Assembly: GCA_003327425.1 (NCBI GenBank)
Contig: QOQW01000006.1
Coordinates: forward strand, 62,001-126,000
Direction: 5' to 3'
DNA from: Candidatus Ozemibacter sibiricus
GTDB lineage: Bacteria; Muiribacteriota; Ozemobacteria; Ozemobacterales; Ozemobacteraceae
Length of the DNA: 64,000 nt
Position 1 is the first letter of the stretch. Every line of letters begins with the position of its first letter. Shown here in pieces: positions 23,520-32,160 of this stretch. The position numbers were made by a program, and so were the translations under genes. The notes below the pieces were generated by a model. It was not told the DNA's origin, did not search any database, and saw nothing but the letters and a program-made list of their open reading frames with translations.

Positions 23520-24494
23520 ATGACCTCCAGCCCGAAACCATCAGCCTCCGTCCCGAAATGGTGCGATCGCACCGCTCGCCTGTTCGGAGCCGAAGGGGTG
23601 GCCCGCCTGGCGGCGGCGCACGTCATGGTCATCGGGCTGGGCGGCGTGGGCAGCTACACCGTCGAGGGACTGGCCCGGACCGGCGTGGGGCGGCTGACCC
23701 TGGTCGATTGCGATGCGGTCTGCATCACCAACATCAACCGGCAGTGCCACGCGCTGGCCTCGACGATCGGGCGCTCCAAGGCCGAGCTGATGGCCGAGCG
23801 CGTGCTGGCCATCAACCCATCGGCCCACGTCGAAGCGGTGAAGGACTTTTACGAAGCCAGAACCGCCCCGAGTTTTCTCGCTCGCCGGCCCGATGTCATC
23901 GTCGATGCCATCGACAACATCACGGCCAAGCTGCACCTGCTGGCCACTTGCATCTACCGGGCCATGCCCGTCGTCACTGCCCTGGGTGCCTCGGCCAAGG
24001 TCGATCCCACGCGGGTACGGGTGGCCGATCTGCGCAAGACGCATGATGATCCGCTGGCCAAGACCATTCGCAAGAACCTGTGGCGGGTCTATGCGATCAA
24101 TCTCAAGCGGGTCTCCCGCCTGCATGCCATCTACTCCGACGAGGAGGTCATCCTGCCCGACCCCGCCTATCGATCGTCGCTGTGCGGCCTGGAATGCGCC
24201 TGCCCCAACCAGGCCAACCAGCATCACACCTGCGCGCGGCGCCGCCTCCTCTACGGCTCGGCCGTCTTCGTCACCTCGGTCTTCGGCATGATCGCGGCCG
24301 GGCTGGTCACCCGTTTCCTGGCTGGCGATTCCCGCGTTGATCTACGCCCGACCTTCAAGGTGCTCGACGGCGACGAACCGCTGCGCGATCCCGACGAGCG
24401 CTGGCGCGACGGAACTCTGGTCGACCCGATCGACACCGAACCGCTGGATGAATCTGCTTCCGCGCTGCCCGACAAGAGCGATTCTTCAGCCTGA
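23520..24494 (+). CDS. tcdA: tRNA threonylcarbamoyladenosine dehydratase
   Basis: A 324-residue E1-like enzyme that cyclises the t6A base at position 37 of tRNAs in an ATP-dependent step. It shows the ThiF/E1 fold: FGAEGVARLAAAHVMVIGLGGVGSY (nucleotide loop GLGGVGS), LVDCDAVCITNINRQ, and DVIVDAIDNITAK. A cysteine-containing segment (GLECACPNQANQHHTC) sits in the region where TcdA carries its catalytic or structural cysteines. Length is slightly above the usual 260-270 because of a polar C-terminal tail. A weak promoter (TTGTGG, 17 bp, CATACT) ends near 23500. No strong ribosome binding site precedes the ATG, so a short leader is likely. Confidence 0.88.
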   Translation: MTSSPKPSASVPKWCDRTARLFGAEGVARLAAAHVMVIGLGGVGSYTVEGLARTGVGRLTLVDCDAVCITNINRQCHALASTIGRSKAELMAERVLAINPSAHVEAVKDFYEARTAPSFLARRPDVIVDAIDNITAKLHLLATCIYRAMPVVTALGASAKVDPTRVRVADLRKTHDDPLAKTIRKNLWRVYAINLKRVSRLHAIYSDEEVILPDPAYRSSLCGLECACPNQANQHHTCARRRLLYGSAVFVTSVFGMIAAGLVTRFLAGDSRVDLRPTFKVLDGDEPLRDPDERWRDGTLVDPIDTEPLDESASALPDKSDSSA

Positions 24495-26102: not shown

Positions 26103-26942
26103 TCAGGCTTTCTTTCGTTTCCCCATCCGGAGGGGAGCGATGGGGGAGGGGCGCGGGGGGGCCGGCGGTGGGGGCGGGCCATCGTCTGGCCCGGTCGCGC
26201 TCCGCGAGGAAAGCCTACCATCGGGGTTGGCGCGGGTTCCGGCGGCTGGCTCAGCTTCGGGGGGAGCCGCCCCGGGGGAAGCCGGTCGGGGGCTTCCTGG
26301 CTGGGGGTGGGCCTGGGAAGCGGTCGCCCGGCTGGTCGGGCCATGATACCCCTGCCCGAGCAGGTAGACTTCCCGGCTGCGGGCCAGGGACGCCTCGGGC
26401 GTGACCGTCTTGGCGAAGCGGAAGAGCGTGCGGGCGCGCTGCCGCAGGGCAGGATACTCGGCGCCTTCGAAGACCTTGGCGAGCATCGCCCCGCCCGGCT
26501 TCAACCAGCGGGCGCACAGATCGAGCACGAGCCCCACCAGTTCGGCCGAGCGTTCGGTATCGGCATGATGGATACCGGTGGTGTGGGGGGCCATGTCGCT
26601 GAGGATGACGTCGAACCCGCCTGGACAGAGGCTGGTGATGCGGTCTTGCACCGCCGGGTCGGTCAGATCGCCCTGCAGGAGGGTGACCCCGTCGATCGGC
26701 TCGACGGGCAGGAGATCGACCCCGATCACCAGGCCCTTGGGGCCGAGGCAGCGCCGGACGACCTGGCACCAGCTGCCCGGGGCGCATCCTAAGTCCAGTA
26801 CTTTTGAGTGCGACTGTATCAATTTGTACTTCTCGGCAATTTCTTGCAACTTGTAGGCGGCGCGCGAGCGGAAGTCCTCGCGGTGGGCCTTCTTCAGGAA
26901 GGGATCATGGAGCCGGCGACGGATCCAGTGGCGATCGGGCAT
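26103..26942 (-). CDS. rlmE: 23S rRNA 2'-O-methyltransferase RlmE (FtsJ)
   Basis: Transfers methyl from SAM to the 2'-OH of U2552 (E. coli numbering) in 23S rRNA. The catalytic K-D-K-E set is visible: FLKKAHREDFRSRAAYKL, ILSDMAPHTTG, AKVFEG and SREVYLLG. The SAM loop is VLDLGCAPGSW. The first 200 residues match the whole RlmE family; the last 75-80 residues are an added Pro/Ala/Arg/Gly-rich tail ending in KRKKA, which could bind RNA. It starts 16 bases after the nucleotidase gene stop, so it is translated from the same message. Confidence 0.92.
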   Translation of the reverse strand: MPDRHWIRRRLHDPFLKKAHREDFRSRAAYKLQEIAEKYKLIQSHSKVLDLGCAPGSWCQVVRRCLGPKGLVIGVDLLPVEPIDGVTLLQGDLTDPAVQDRITSLCPGGFDVILSDMAPHTTGIHHADTERSAELVGLVLDLCARWLKPGGAMLAKVFEGAEYPALRQRARTLFRFAKTVTPEASLARSREVYLLGQGYHGPTSRATASQAHPQPGSPRPASPGAAPPEAEPAAGTRANPDGRLSSRSATGPDDGPPPPPAPPRPSPIAPLRMGKRKKA

Positions 26943-26958
26943 GATGCGAAATCGCGTC

Positions 26959-28770
26959 TCAGCGGCGCGGGGCGGCGGCGGCGGCCATGGTCGGCAAGGC
27001 GGGTCGATGGCCGGCGGGGGTGGCGGGGGCGGCGTGCAGATCGGGGGCGTAGGCGTGGATGGTCACGGCTCCAGGCAGTGGGCGGATGGCCTGGCGCAAA
27101 TTGAACATCCGTTGTTCGGGCAGGGTGTGGATTCCCTTCTCGGCCCGGATTTTCAAGATGACCATGTCGCGCACCAGGATCCCGGTGTCGCGGCGATCAG
27201 GAAGGTCCTTCAGCCAGCCGAATCCGTCGCCGCCGCCCGCGATGTAGCTATTGAAGGCGACGCGATATGTTCGTTCGGTCTCCACCGGGGTGCCGTCGGA
27301 GGCCACCAGACTGATCACCCGATCCATCGGGGGACGGTGCGGGTCGAAGGTCACCTGCAACCCGGAGGGGATGAGATAGCCGTACGTCGCGATGAACTCG
27401 CGTTTGAGGCCGGCGGCCTCGACCCGGAAATTCTGGACGGCATACTCGTTGTCGGCCGGCCCGATGGGGGACCAGTCCACCGACAGCGTTTCCTCGAGCA
27501 GCCGCCGGATCTGCGCCCCGGTCATGGTCACCACCACGGCGGTATTGGGGAACGGTTGCAGGGTGAAGATCTGTTCGACCGTCACATCGCCCCTGAACAC
27601 GGGGAACCGCACCCCGCCGATGTTCATGAACGCGAAATCGGCTTCGCTGAACTGGCGCATGGCGTCGGCCAGGTAGGAGCCTTCGGGGGAGTCGCCGCCG
27701 ATGACGCCGCGCACCAGGTCGACCTGGGACGGCCCCAGGACTTCCTTCATCAGGTGATCGATGGGCGCCATGTAGGACGCCACCAGGCGCTGGGTATCCG
27801 GGTCCTCCGGGTAGTCGGACAGGTAGAGGGCATGGGCCTGGAACTCGGTGGCTTGCGCGTTTCCGGCGCCTAGAGCGATCTCGGAGCGGGTCACGAACCG
27901 GTTGTCATAACCGGCATGGAAGACAGGAGTGGGGCGGGGGCCGCACCATTCGGGGGCGGTCATTGGCGTGTGGCTGTGCGAACCGAGGATCAGGTCGATG
28001 TCGGGCAAAGCCGTGGCCAGCCGGCGATCGTCTTCGATCCCGAGATGGGAGAGCACGACGATGAAATCGGCGCCGCGCCGCCGCAGGGCAGGAACCAGTT
28101 CGCGCAGAATCGGCAAGGGGTCACGGAATTCGAGGCCGGCCGTATTCTCGGGCATCGAGATCCGGGGGGTCTCGGGCGTCAGCACGGCGGTTACACCCAG
28201 CAGGCGCCCCTTCCAGGGGATCAGAACATAGGGCCGGACTCCGGCCAGCAGTCGGCCGGTCGCCTGTTCGAACACATTGCAGTTGACCACCGGGAAGCGG
28301 GCGAGCCGGATGGCTTCCTTCAGGCGGGCCGGGCCGTAGTCGAAATCGTGGTTGCCGATGCCCGCCGCAGCGACCCGCAGGTGGTTCATGAGGGCGATCA
28401 TGCACTCGCCTTTGGTATGGTCGACGACCGGTGTGCCCTGGAAATAGTCGCCGGCGTCGAAGAAGAGGGGCAGGGCGCCCCGCTGGTAGGCCTCGAGCCG
28501 AGCCCGCTGCAGGAAGGTCGCCAGGGCGGCGTGGCCGCCGATCAGCGGTTTGTCGGTGGCGGTGCTGATCGGATCGGGTTGGGCCGTCAGGTGCCCGTGC
28601 GTATCGCTGGTGTGGAACAGCACGAAAGAGGGGGCCAGGGCCGGTGCCGGAGGAATGCCGGCACCCGGGCCAGCCCACCAAGGAATCAGCAGAAGAATGG
28701 CCAGGGCCAACGGCCACCGGATGAGACTGAGGCAGGCTCGAGCGGTGAGGGGACAAGAGGAGCGGCGCAT
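26959..28770 (-). CDS. exported 5'-nucleotidase/UshA-family metallophosphatase
   Basis: A 603-residue periplasmic or surface phosphatase. A signal peptide or anchor (about residues 13-40) precedes the calcineurin-like domain with the metal-binding series HTSDTHGH, FDAGDYFQG, GIGNHDFDYG, VVLSHLG and LGSHSHT. The C-terminal 5'-nucleotidase domain (about 360-550) has FMNIGGVRF and FNSYIAGGGDGF, residues of the family's nucleotide-binding pocket. It would salvage extracellular nucleotides. ATG at 28770 is chosen because TGGAGG lies 5 bases before it; the longer frame upstream has no such site. First of three leftward genes with rlmE and a GT-C-like gene. Confidence 0.9.
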   Translation of the reverse strand: MRRSSCPLTARACLSLIRWPLALAILLLIPWWAGPGAGIPPAPALAPSFVLFHTSDTHGHLTAQPDPISTATDKPLIGGHAALATFLQRARLEAYQRGALPLFFDAGDYFQGTPVVDHTKGECMIALMNHLRVAAAGIGNHDFDYGPARLKEAIRLARFPVVNCNVFEQATGRLLAGVRPYVLIPWKGRLLGVTAVLTPETPRISMPENTAGLEFRDPLPILRELVPALRRRGADFIVVLSHLGIEDDRRLATALPDIDLILGSHSHTPMTAPEWCGPRPTPVFHAGYDNRFVTRSEIALGAGNAQATEFQAHALYLSDYPEDPDTQRLVASYMAPIDHLMKEVLGPSQVDLVRGVIGGDSPEGSYLADAMRQFSEADFAFMNIGGVRFPVFRGDVTVEQIFTLQPFPNTAVVVTMTGAQIRRLLEETLSVDWSPIGPADNEYAVQNFRVEAAGLKREFIATYGYLIPSGLQVTFDPHRPPMDRVISLVASDGTPVETERTYRVAFNSYIAGGGDGFGWLKDLPDRRDTGILVRDMVILKIRAEKGIHTLPEQRMFNLRQAIRPLPGAVTIHAYAPDLHAAPATPAGHRPALPTMAAAAAPRR

Positions 28771-28898: not shown

Positions 28899-29390
28899 TC
28901 AGCTGCCGAGCGTGTGCAGGGCTTCTTCGGCCTGGTGGGCGATGGCGGGCTCGGGACGCAGCTTCAGGCACTTCTCGAACGCGGCGCGGGCGCCCTTCAG
29001 GTCGTTGGTCTTGGCCAGGCAGAAGCCGTAGTAGTAATGGGCCTCGGCGTTGCTGGGCGAGGCCTTGACCGCCCGCGTGGCGAACTGCAGCGCTTCGGTG
29101 AATTTGCGTTTGGCGATCATCTCCTTGGCTTTGTCGAGGGCGATGGCTTCATCGTCTTCGAGCACCAGCTCGATGAACTTCCGGTTGATCGACAGGAACC
29201 CCACTTCCGAGGTCGACTGGTCGCGCAGGTCGGTCACGCTGACATTGGTCACGGGCAGGAAATCCTTCGTCGCGGTGTCGGCGTTCAGGATGTCGGTCAG
29301 TCGACTGTTCTCATAGAGATGCACTTCGCCTTTGATGCGGTGATGGGGGGTGTAGATGATGACCCGAAGCTTTTCCTTGTGCGCTTTCAT
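28899..29390 (-). CDS. TPR protein with an N-terminal small beta domain
   Basis: A 163-residue cytoplasmic protein. The first 75 residues look beta-rich (RVIIYTPHHRIKGEVHLYEN) and resemble small DUF6812-like domains; the remaining 85 form two TPR repeats (ALQFATRAVKASPSNAEAHY and following). ATG at 29390 is preceded by GGAGG at an ideal distance. It lies 28 bases after the stop of the radical-SAM/thioesterase gene on the same strand and is likely co-transcribed. It could be an adapter for a partner; function unknown. Confidence 0.8.
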   Translation of the reverse strand: MKAHKEKLRVIIYTPHHRIKGEVHLYENSRLTDILNADTATKDFLPVTNVSVTDLRDQSTSEVGFLSINRKFIELVLEDDEAIALDKAKEMIAKRKFTEALQFATRAVKASPSNAEAHYYYGFCLAKTNDLKGARAAFEKCLKLRPEPAIAHQAEEALHTLGS

Positions 29391-29418
29391 CGTGTCCTCC
29401 AGAGGGGTGGTTGGTCGT

Positions 29419-30801
29419 TCAGCATTCGGCGAACCGTCCTTCGGCCTCGGCCAGCAGGGTGCCATCGGGGCCGGTGACGGTGCCGCGCGCGAAATGGATC
29501 CGTTGGCGGTGGCCGGTGCGGGTGCCGGTCACGGTGAGGGGAAGCCCGACCGGAACCGGGCGCAGGAAGCGGACTCGCAGGTCGGCGGTGACGACTTGCC
29601 GGCCGGCTCCGTTCAAGCAATGAGCCATGGCTTCGTCGAGCAGGGTCGAGAGCAGCCCGCCGTGCACGATTCCGGCATAGCCCTGGAAGGCGGCCCCGGG
29701 GACCCAGGTGGCGGTGCAGGTATCGGCATCGTGCCGACGGAAGGCGATCTGCAGGCCATCGGGATTATGGTCGCCACAGACGAAGCATTTGCGGTTGTCG
29801 AGCAGGGCGAGCCCGCTGCCGGCCCGGGCTTGCAGACGATCGCGGGCTCGGCTCAAGGCTTCCGCCAGCCCGGGGCGGTTCACGGCGACGGGGGTGGTCA
29901 GAGGCAGACGTTCGTACAGCGCGCCGGCGGCTTCTACCAGCCGGCTCTTCACCAGCTCGAGCCCAGGCACCGGGAAGGTGGGCATGATCGGATCGCCAGT
30001 GACGATCGGCGTCGATCCCAGATCGTTGAGACCCGCGCCGATCAGTTCGGGGTAGCGGGCGAACAGATGGATGGGCACCGACAGGGCATGCACGGGAAAA
30101 GCCCGCGCCAGCTCGATGATCATCGCCCGGACCTCGTCGAAGGGCAGGGGCGGGCGGGCGCGGAATGGCGTGCCGGGCACCGGCTGGAAAGGGACCGCTC
30201 GCACGTCCTGCAGCCAGGGGTCGGCGGCGCAGAACGCCCCGATCTCCTGCACGGTTCGCCGACGTTCTTCCGCGCTCTCCCCGAGGCCGATCAGGAAATC
30301 GAGGTGGTAGGGCAGGCCGGCCTGATGGGCTTTCTCGATCGCTTCGCGGGCGGTGGCGGGGCGGCGGCCCCGCGCGGCCGCGTGGGCCTGGCCCTCGCCA
30401 TCGAGCGGCGCGGCGAGGACCGGGATGCGCACCGAGGCCGCCACGGGCGCCAGGGTCTTCAACTCGAGCGGGGTCAGCCAGCCGACCTGGAGCACGGGCA
30501 GCAGACCGTGCTCGAGCGCCATGCGGCAGGCCTGATGCAGGTATTCCCCGAAGGACGTGCATTTGTCGCGGGCCAGGGCCATCAGCACGTGCGGCCGTTC
30601 GGCCGGCGACTGCCCGGCGGCCAGCACCACTTCGGTCGCCCGCCCTTTCGCCAGAGGAGCGAACTGGTCGCCCAGGCGACTGAGCGGCACCAGGGGATCA
30701 TCATCTCGACGGAATCCGCAATAGGCACAGGCTTCGCGGCAGGAACGGGTCAGCACCACGGTTCCGCTGACCACCACCGAAACCGATCGGGTCGTCTGCA
30801 T
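29419..30801 (-). CDS. fusion of a CofG-like radical SAM domain and a PaaI-like hotdog thioesterase
   Basis: A single unbroken 460-residue protein. The N-terminal 310 residues form a radical SAM barrel with the cluster motif CREACAYCGF (C-x3-C-x2-C) and a stretch TEVVLAAGQSPAERPHVL that recalls CofG, the deazaflavin (F420/F0) synthase subunit, and biotin-synthase-like enzymes. The C-terminal 140 residues are a hotdog thioesterase, opening with KCFVCGDHNPDGL and containing GIVHGGLLSTLLDEAM, the PaaI-type active-site helix. Such a combination is not one I recognise. No CofH partner is adjacent. There is no ribosome binding site before the ATG; TACACT 7 bases upstream suggests a leaderless message. 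The reaction is unknown. Confidence 0.82.
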   Translation of the reverse strand: MQTTRSVSVVVSGTVVLTRSCREACAYCGFRRDDDPLVPLSRLGDQFAPLAKGRATEVVLAAGQSPAERPHVLMALARDKCTSFGEYLHQACRMALEHGLLPVLQVGWLTPLELKTLAPVAASVRIPVLAAPLDGEGQAHAAARGRRPATAREAIEKAHQAGLPYHLDFLIGLGESAEERRRTVQEIGAFCAADPWLQDVRAVPFQPVPGTPFRARPPLPFDEVRAMIIELARAFPVHALSVPIHLFARYPELIGAGLNDLGSTPIVTGDPIMPTFPVPGLELVKSRLVEAAGALYERLPLTTPVAVNRPGLAEALSRARDRLQARAGSGLALLDNRKCFVCGDHNPDGLQIAFRRHDADTCTATWVPGAAFQGYAGIVHGGLLSTLLDEAMAHCLNGAGRQVVTADLRVRFLRPVPVGLPLTVTGTRTGHRQRIHFARGTVTGPDGTLLAEAEGRFAEC

Positions 30802-30918
30802 GGTGGAAAGTGTACCACAAAATCGGCGGGGCGACACCTCGCAGAATTTGGGAACCTTTTCGCCGATCCGTGGTCAATGCATGCAAATCCTGGGGAAAAT
30901 GTGAGGAGCAAGCGTCTC

Positions 30919-32160
30919 ATGATCGTCCCTTCCTCTGGAAGGCTCCGGTCCCTCCTGGCGGTCCTGATCCTGTTGGTGCTGGGGCTGGCCGCTGGCCAGC
31001 CGGGAGCGGCCCAGTCGGCGGGCTTCTCGATCGACGCCACGGTCGATCGCACCAAGGTCAGGTTCGGCGAATCCTTTCAATTGCTGATCACGGTCACGCA
31101 GCGCCTTTCCGGCGGAGGCACCGAACGGATCGGGGCCCCGCAGGTCAGTCAGATTCCCGGCTTCGACATCGTCGGCCAGCGCACCTCCCACAACACGATG
31201 ATCATCAACGGCATCGGGCAGATCCAGTTGCAGACGGCCGTCGAGCTGGTTCCTCAGAAGGCCGGCGAGTTCACCATTCCCGCGTTGAGCATGCAAGGCC
31301 CTGACGGGAAGATCTACTCGACCCGACCGATCCCGATCACCGTCCTGCCGCCGGCCCCCGATGATGAAGCCCCCGGGCTTGGCGAGGCAGAACCGGCGGC
31401 CGGCCCCGGCGATCAGGGCGAAGAGAGTCGGTCGGGCTCGCGCCTGGCCAATATTCTGGTCGTCGCTCTGGTCATTCTCGGGTCGGTGATCGGTGCCCCC
31501 ATTCTGCTGACCTGGCTCCTCAACCGGAACGTCAAGCCGTCCACCCGCTGGCAGGACGAAGAGCCGGCCACCATCACCGCCACCACCACCGGCGGGCCGC
31601 GGCGCGGGGCTGCCGAGACGAGAGCCGCTCGCCCTGTCCCGCCCATCGAAGACGCCCAGATCACCCGGCGCGAATCGCCCCCCGCGGCCCCCGCGAGTGG
31701 GGCGGCGAGCGCTGGGTCTACCGGCGTCGCCGCCGCGGTCAGCGGGAGCACCCCTTCCAGGGCGACCGGCGGCGGGCCCCGTCCGTCCACGCCCGCTCCC
31801 CAGGCCGGGCCTCGCGTCGCCGCGCCGCCGCCCCTGCGCGATCAGGTCGATTTCGAGCGCGAGGTCACGGCATTGCAGCGCCTCCATCCCGAGGCCGATC
31901 TCGAATTCTACCGCTCGTTCTTCGATCTGTTCCGCCGGGCCGCTCTCGGGCGGTCGGCCCGACTCGACCCGCACATGACCCCCGATGAGATGGTCCAGAG
32001 CCTCCTGCGCACGCTTCCTGAGCCGGTCGGAGTCCGGTTGCGCCGGCTGGCCGACGATTGGGAAGGGGTCGCGTTCGCCCATTGCCGCCCCGCCCGTACC
32101 TGGTCCACCATCCTCGAGGACGCGCTCGCCGTCCTTGCCGCCATCCCATCCCAGGAGTGA
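30919..32160 (+). CDS. BatD-like membrane protein
   Basis: A 413-residue protein and first gene of the Bat/MoxR cluster. A signal peptide (about 8-33, ending AAQSAG) is followed by an Ig-like N-terminal region with the BatD phrase ATVDRTKVRFGESFQL and later QLQTAVELVPQKAGEFTIPALSM. One membrane helix lies at about 177-200. The remaining cytoplasmic half is Pro/Ala-rich and then helical, ending with a small domain (about 300-413). BatD proteins help the VWA proteins of the operon at the envelope. Only four bases separate its stop from the MoxR ATG. GAGGAG upstream of ATG 30919 supports the start; longer upstream frame is antisense. Confidence 0.82.
   Translation: MIVPSSGRLRSLLAVLILLVLGLAAGQPGAAQSAGFSIDATVDRTKVRFGESFQLLITVTQRLSGGGTERIGAPQVSQIPGFDIVGQRTSHNTMIINGIGQIQLQTAVELVPQKAGEFTIPALSMQGPDGKIYSTRPIPITVLPPAPDDEAPGLGEAEPAAGPGDQGEESRSGSRLANILVVALVILGSVIGAPILLTWLLNRNVKPSTRWQDEEPATITATTTGGPRRGAAETRAARPVPPIEDAQITRRESPPAAPASGAASAGSTGVAAAVSGSTPSRATGGGPRPSTPAPQAGPRVAAPPPLRDQVDFEREVTALQRLHPEADLEFYRSFFDLFRRAALGRSARLDPHMTPDEMVQSLLRTLPEPVGVRLRRLADDWEGVAFAHCRPARTWSTILEDALAVLAAIPSQE

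Follow-up and report, generated by a model that had tools for sequence, protein, structure and literature searches.

The window analysed here, a stretch of 64,000 nucleotides from Candidatus Ozemibacter sibiricus, carries on its minus strand a block of four genes running in one direction and headed by a radical SAM-hotdog fusion gene (Table 1). The fusion is an intact single frame of 460 residues, from the ATG at 30801 to the stop codon at 29419-29421, followed by DUF6812 (with or without TPR in different genomes), a secreted-looking 5'-nucleotidase and an RlmE-like methyltransferase.

Table 1. Features of the fusion gene and of the genes downstream of it (positions in the window)
Feature	Position	Strand	Evidence or remark
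Radical SAM-hotdog fusion gene	29419..30801	(-)	Frame, Pfam, NCBIfam, phylum profile search
CofG-like radical SAM barrel, about residues 1-305	29887..30801	(-)	Pfam, NCBIfam, AlphaFold/PDB
CX3CX2C motif (C21, C25, C28)	30718..30741	(-)	Invariant in 19/19 fusions and 10/10 CofGs
PaaI/THEM-type hotdog domain, about residues 335-460, opening with C-F-x-C-G	29422..29799	(-)	Pfam 4HBT, PDB matches
HGG-x6-D motif (H380 to D389), predicted thioesterase active site	29635..29664	(-)	Invariant in 19/19 fusions
DUF6812 + TPR gene, with its own ribosome-binding site (GGAGG) before the ATG	28899..29390	(-)	Pfam; 28 bp downstream of the fusion stop
5'-nucleotidase-family gene (Metallophos + 5_nucleotid_C), apparent signal peptide by eye	26959..28770	(-)	
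RlmE/FtsJ-like rRNA methyltransferase, 16 bp downstream of the nucleotidase	26103..26942	(-)	

Domain architecture of the fusion

Residues 15-186 of the fusion match Pfam Radical_SAM (32.3 bits, gathering cut-off 29.5) and residues 377-447 match Pfam 4HBT (44.8 bits, gathering cut-off 20.6). The best NCBIfam matches are CofG models; they span residues 6-302 and score 125-130 bits, where the cut-offs are 209-213. The model TIGR00369, 'hotdog fold thioesterase', is matched at 38.3 bits, above its cut-off of 36.6. AlphaFold2, run on the family alignment, predicts both domains with a mean pLDDT of 90.7; the sole segment below 50 is the joint (residues 330-334), and this weak joint, together with a pTM of 0.71, makes the predicted arrangement of barrel and hotdog uncertain. 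The barrel matches MqnE, BioB, HydE and ThiH in the PDB (Z 22-24, rmsd 2.6-3.5, 261-278 aligned residues), and the hotdog matches 2ov9 (Z 19.5, rmsd 2.0, 130 aligned residues) as well as THEM2, SP_1851 and PaaI (Z 16-18). The first-pass annotation had read a single frame uniting a CofG-like barrel with a PaaI-like hotdog; Pfam, NCBIfam, AlphaFold2 and the PDB comparison all bear this out, and the frame lies on the minus strand. Both families are known, and what is new is the domain architecture that combines them. A plus-strand frame of 934 residues (window 29356-32160) runs antisense to the fusion and then enters the real BatD gene, with PF13584 at its residues 561-663, and is a trap for gene callers.

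By its Pfam score, its TIM-like barrel fold and the presence of CX3CX2C in 19/19 aligned fusions, the barrel falls within the radical SAM superfamily, and from what is generally known of that superfamily we presume that the three cysteines bind a [4Fe-4S] cluster. The alignment comprises 19 fusions; the copy from genome G008 was dropped for its in-frame stop, and that from G036, identified at a later stage, is not included. Besides the cysteine motif, Y87, P102, G172/G174/E175, D260 and E297-R298 are invariant in the barrel. For comparison with CofG we used 10 CofG/FbiC sequences out of 58 matching plasmid records, 7 of which are annotated as CofG, CofGH or CofH, the other three (L084, L087 and L088) having no annotation in the record. 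The barrel is about 25-32% identical to CofG and the N-terminal half of FbiC, and shares with them both CX3CX2C and the C-terminal barrel pattern. MqnE, HydE, BioB and ThiH share the barrel fold, but at 12-16% identity, and none of them has a hotdog. All ten CofGs agree at 78 alignment columns. At least 17 of the 19 fusions keep the CofG residue at 24 of these, including the three cysteines, E57, G63, Y87, P102, G172, E175, Q198, D260, E297 and R298.

The fusion nevertheless differs from CofG/FbiC in several respects. The window's protein scores 129.5 and 124.9 bits against CofG equivalog cut-offs of 209 and 213.35, and four other fusions that were scanned score 132.6-154.1 and 120.6-152.2, respectively. 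As many as 21 of the 78 CofG-invariant columns, including H103, G125, M127, R151, G159, N204, Q241, G263 and W278 (window numbering), are matched by none of the 19 fusions, and at 7 of the 21 one other residue is fixed in at least 17 of them; the changes from CofG to fusion include H103 to V, G159 to H, N204 to P, Q241 to S, G263 to S and W278 to V, among others. Conversely, C191, D194, P195, L197, P218 and L219 are invariant among the fusions and found in 0/10 CofGs. The N-terminal extension of CofG is missing, and a hotdog stands where CofG/FbiC has either CofH or nothing. The alignment shows a barrel that, by its conserved residues, is CofG-derived, having kept the cluster motif and fold residues and acquired a fixed set of its own. 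Judging from conservation, the altered residues may be those of the substrate pocket.

The rest of the pathway is likewise lacking. The first-pass annotation had proposed looking for CofH or another CofG in the window's genome, and neither is present at cut-off level; CofH exceeds its cut-off in 0/36 phylum genomes (46.5 bits is the best in the window's genome), CofG in 0/36 and CofD in 0/39, with not even a sub-threshold match to CofD in the window's genome. Passages of two papers on FO synthesis state that it requires both CofH and CofG, CofG acting on the product of CofH (PMC8498797, PMC8210684). Since CofG, CofH and CofD are not found over cut-off and CofG residues have been replaced, the fusion has most likely lost the FO-synthase role. 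Elsewhere, a Natrinema plasmid gene annotated cofG (L086 1333-2478) has no cofH among the features of its 3.8-kb stretch, and may encode another CofG-like enzyme.

In the hotdog, H380-G-G, D389, T405, C339 and C342 are invariant in 19/19 fusions. Its Pfam score, its fold and an HGG with an acidic residue nine positions after the histidine place it in the 4HBT superfamily. The PaaI motif is given in part of a 2004 hotdog survey as HGG-x-IF-x-LAD, with Asp61 as the proposed active residue (PMC516016), and the HGG-x6-D of the fusion has the same spacing. Furthermore, residues 350-460 pair without gaps with residues 13-123 of 4xy5, the CoA-binding thioesterase SP_1851, in the structural match; D389 falls on Asp52 and, by the same offset, T405 on Thr68, the two residues that PDB titles name as mutated in deposited SP_1851 structures. 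With its motif intact, the fused hotdog looks catalytic. Caution comes from a putative second catalytic residue, the invariant Q373, which lies 16 residues from D389, one more than the 15 that separate Gln32 and Glu47, both described as required in part of a report on SaPaaI (PMC13114782).

The fusion shares the fold and HGG-x6-D with PaaI/THEM-type (4HBT) thioesterases, stand-alone plasmid PaaI-family proteins being up to 40% identical to its hotdog. Unlike these, it is joined to a barrel and has a fixed C339-F-x-C342 lead (19/19), and it scores 35.7 bits against the cut-off of 118.9 of the NCBIfam PaaD equivalog, which places it outside PaaI (hydroxyphenylacetyl-CoA thioesterase). The same genomes also hold free-standing hotdogs of similar sequence, 31-37% identical within the family over most of the domain.

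Distribution and gene neighbourhood

In a profile search of 39 phylum genomes, the full-length fusion was found in 21/24 genomes of Candidatus Ozemobacteraceae (Riflebacteria) and in 0/15 genomes from other families. Each carrier genome has one full-length copy, never split, whose identity to the window protein is 40-90%, or 33% in the case of G011. The three genomes of the family in which it was not found are 69% (G020), 75% (G021) and 82% (G037) complete. Since the contigs of G021 and G037 end within the same gene block, inside the nucleotidase and inside RlmE, respectively, these two absences are best read as assembly gaps; G020 also lacks RlmE. The G011 copy (L051 6887-8812) encodes 642 residues, with two tandem hotdogs on one barrel. 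Its second hotdog, which falls inside the fused group of the hotdog tree with weak support (0.37), likely arose by duplication. Over six pairs the barrel shows dN/dS ratios of 0.08-0.19. The hotdog gives 0.03-0.16 in five of the six, silent sites being saturated in the remaining pair; by these estimates both domains are under purifying selection. The first-pass annotation had named as its refuting case a frameshift or an assembly error joining two genes, which is ruled out by the same full-length fusion in 21 separate assemblies, one of them (G008, L043 1493-2923) interrupted by an in-frame TAG, and by the low dN/dS of both parts.

Beyond the phylum, plasmids, phages and viral contigs were covered. 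A contig scan with a single-protein query returned three loci, all close relatives. Phages gave 0 matches, the 36 pattern matches among viral contigs contained no relative, and none of the 279 matched plasmid records had a single place that covered 80% of the query; no sign of transfer on phages or plasmids was found in these collections.

The gene that follows the fusion had been described as a small TPR gene. It is indeed next and in the same direction, although it is DUF6812 plus TPR instead of a plain TPR gene. DUF6812 is accompanied by TPR in genera g1, g2, g3, g6, g7 and g9, stands without it in g4, g8 and g11, and is absent altogether in G006, G013 and G011; the TPR half is dispensable. 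In other phylum families the genes adjoining DUF6812-TPR are unrelated; two loci of a single genus (L105, L111) have a distant nucleotidase less than 4 kb away. DUF6812 was rejected as a functional clue, the listed PDB matches being led by the TPR half, and it is unmentioned in the literature searched.

Among loci with room, the nucleotidase is present in 18/19, the exception being G008, and RlmE in 17/17; a Bat operon adjoins the fusion divergently in 12/16 loci with upstream room. By eye, the gene after DUF6812 in G008 (L043 1-980) reads as a metallo-beta-lactamase-fold nuclease that replaces the nucleotidase, and in G014 and G007 the nucleotidase is tandemly duplicated (L045 1865-5248, L048 2836-6222). 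RlmE-type FtsJ, a 23S rRNA methyltransferase (about 157-195 bits, full-length matches), is restricted within the phylum to the window's family (19/24 genomes); FtsJ matches in the other families reach 151 bits in frames of about 265-310 residues, which we take to be TlyA. Orthologues of the operon nucleotidase (37-85% identity) also occur in this family only, with paralogues of at most 33% elsewhere. Since RlmE and the nucleotidase are so confined, most of the four-gene block is a clade-specific unit, and its genes name no substrate. A search of the block gave 0 RNA elements at gathering score, and a simple scan gave 0 promoter-like sites and four minus-strand terminator-like sites, all within the nucleotidase gene. 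Elsewhere in the window, at 23520-24494 on the plus strand, lies a gene for a ThiF/TcdA-like protein (201.9 bits, TcdA cut-off 304), possibly a diverged t6A37 cyclase.

Possible functions of the fusion

We tentatively favour, at somewhat less than an even chance, an anaerobic, bifunctional enzyme, evolved a single time in the Ozemobacteraceae ancestor, that combines a radical step with thioester hydrolysis in one pathway. The barrel would make a 5'-deoxyadenosyl radical and abstract hydrogen from a small substrate other than the CofH product, and the hotdog would dimerise and hydrolyse the thioester of an acyl-CoA (or acyl-carrier). One polypeptide would in this way either free the radical product from a thioester or load it as one. 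Because the catalytic motif of the hotdog is intact and the domains are fused, we infer that the radical step may act on, or release, a CoA- or carrier-bound intermediate. The distribution (21/24 against 0/15), the invariant residues, the low dN/dS, the SP_1851 positions and the lack of CofG, CofH and CofD at cut-off level all count for the bifunctional enzyme. Against it stand the absence of a CoA ligase, acyl carrier protein or lipid enzyme among the block neighbours, the spacing of Q373, and the pTM and weak joint of the model. Furthermore, the two FbiC domains appear, from part of one report, to work by diffusion (PMC8498797), so that fusion does not entail channelling, and hotdogs can be non-catalytic, as the survey notes for FapR (PMC516016).

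Known hotdog structures are oligomeric. The fused hotdog could accordingly serve as a dimerisation or ligand-sensing module that binds acyl-CoA or a similar ligand and regulates or assembles the barrel without catalysis, a role that would fit the two tandem hotdogs on the single barrel of G011 as well as the SaPaaI tetramer (PMC13114782) and non-catalytic FapR, as far as the consulted parts of these papers go; we consider it doubtful given that HGG and D389 are invariant in 19/19 fusions and that the hotdog retains the SP_1851 catalytic positions. The two halves might instead have unrelated housekeeping jobs, for example with the hotdog as a stand-alone CoA-salvage thioesterase, and be fused for co-expression only. 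The similar free-standing hotdogs in the same genomes and the functionally mixed operon partners speak for such an arrangement, which is nonetheless rendered unlikely by a fusion that stays unsplit and one-copy in 21 genomes and by the similar constraint on its two parts.

The fixed neighbours, above all the nucleotidase and RlmE with their confinement to the same family, and the apparent nuclease next to DUF6812 in G008, could be taken to point to RNA or nucleotide modification by the barrel, with the hotdog providing or taking away an acyl group. A secreted-looking nucleotidase would not meet an RNA enzyme, however, and Pfam finds no RNA-binding domain in the fusion, so that we regard an RNA or nucleotide substrate as quite improbable. 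That the fusion is a CofG making FO for F420 or a photolyase is scarcely credible: CofG is its best NCBIfam match, but at scores below cut-off, with CofG-invariant residues replaced and with CofH and CofD nowhere over cut-off, and we rejected this identity.

Relation to known systems and implications

The fusion resembles the hotdog 'Rosetta' fusions, in which, according to part of the 2004 survey, a hotdog is joined to a second enzyme that presumably serves the same pathway (PMC516016). The fusions described there involve dehalogenase and 3-hydroxyacyl-CoA dehydrogenase domains, whereas the partner here is a radical SAM domain. The first-pass annotation knew of no characterised enzyme with this pair; we likewise found no described enzyme pairing radical SAM with a hotdog or thioesterase in the literature searched, whose scope excluded most subscription journals and unpublished domain databases, and the main text of the survey does not contain the term 'radical SAM' (PMC516016).

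CofG appears only as an FO synthase in the literature found, as far as the available parts of those papers extend. Because a remade CofG-derived barrel persists without CofH or CofD at cut-off level, our comparison suggests that the CofG family has been recruited for another radical reaction. Automatic annotation could well label the fusion CofG, wrongly implying F420 in Ozemobacteraceae. The fused thioesterase, for its part, is a rare handle on the reaction of the barrel, with acyl-CoAs as starting candidates. It is conceivable, if rather unlikely, that the barrel carries out a rearrangement, cyclisation or desaturation of an acyl group which the built-in hotdog then releases, and that the product is a so far undescribed metabolite or lipid peculiar to Ozemobacteraceae; if true, this would make the fusion a radical enzyme of a new kind, acting on acyl-CoA (or acyl-carrier) substrates. 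A conserved fusion in an uncultured anaerobic family that lacks the rest of the cofactor pathway points to an undescribed enzyme.
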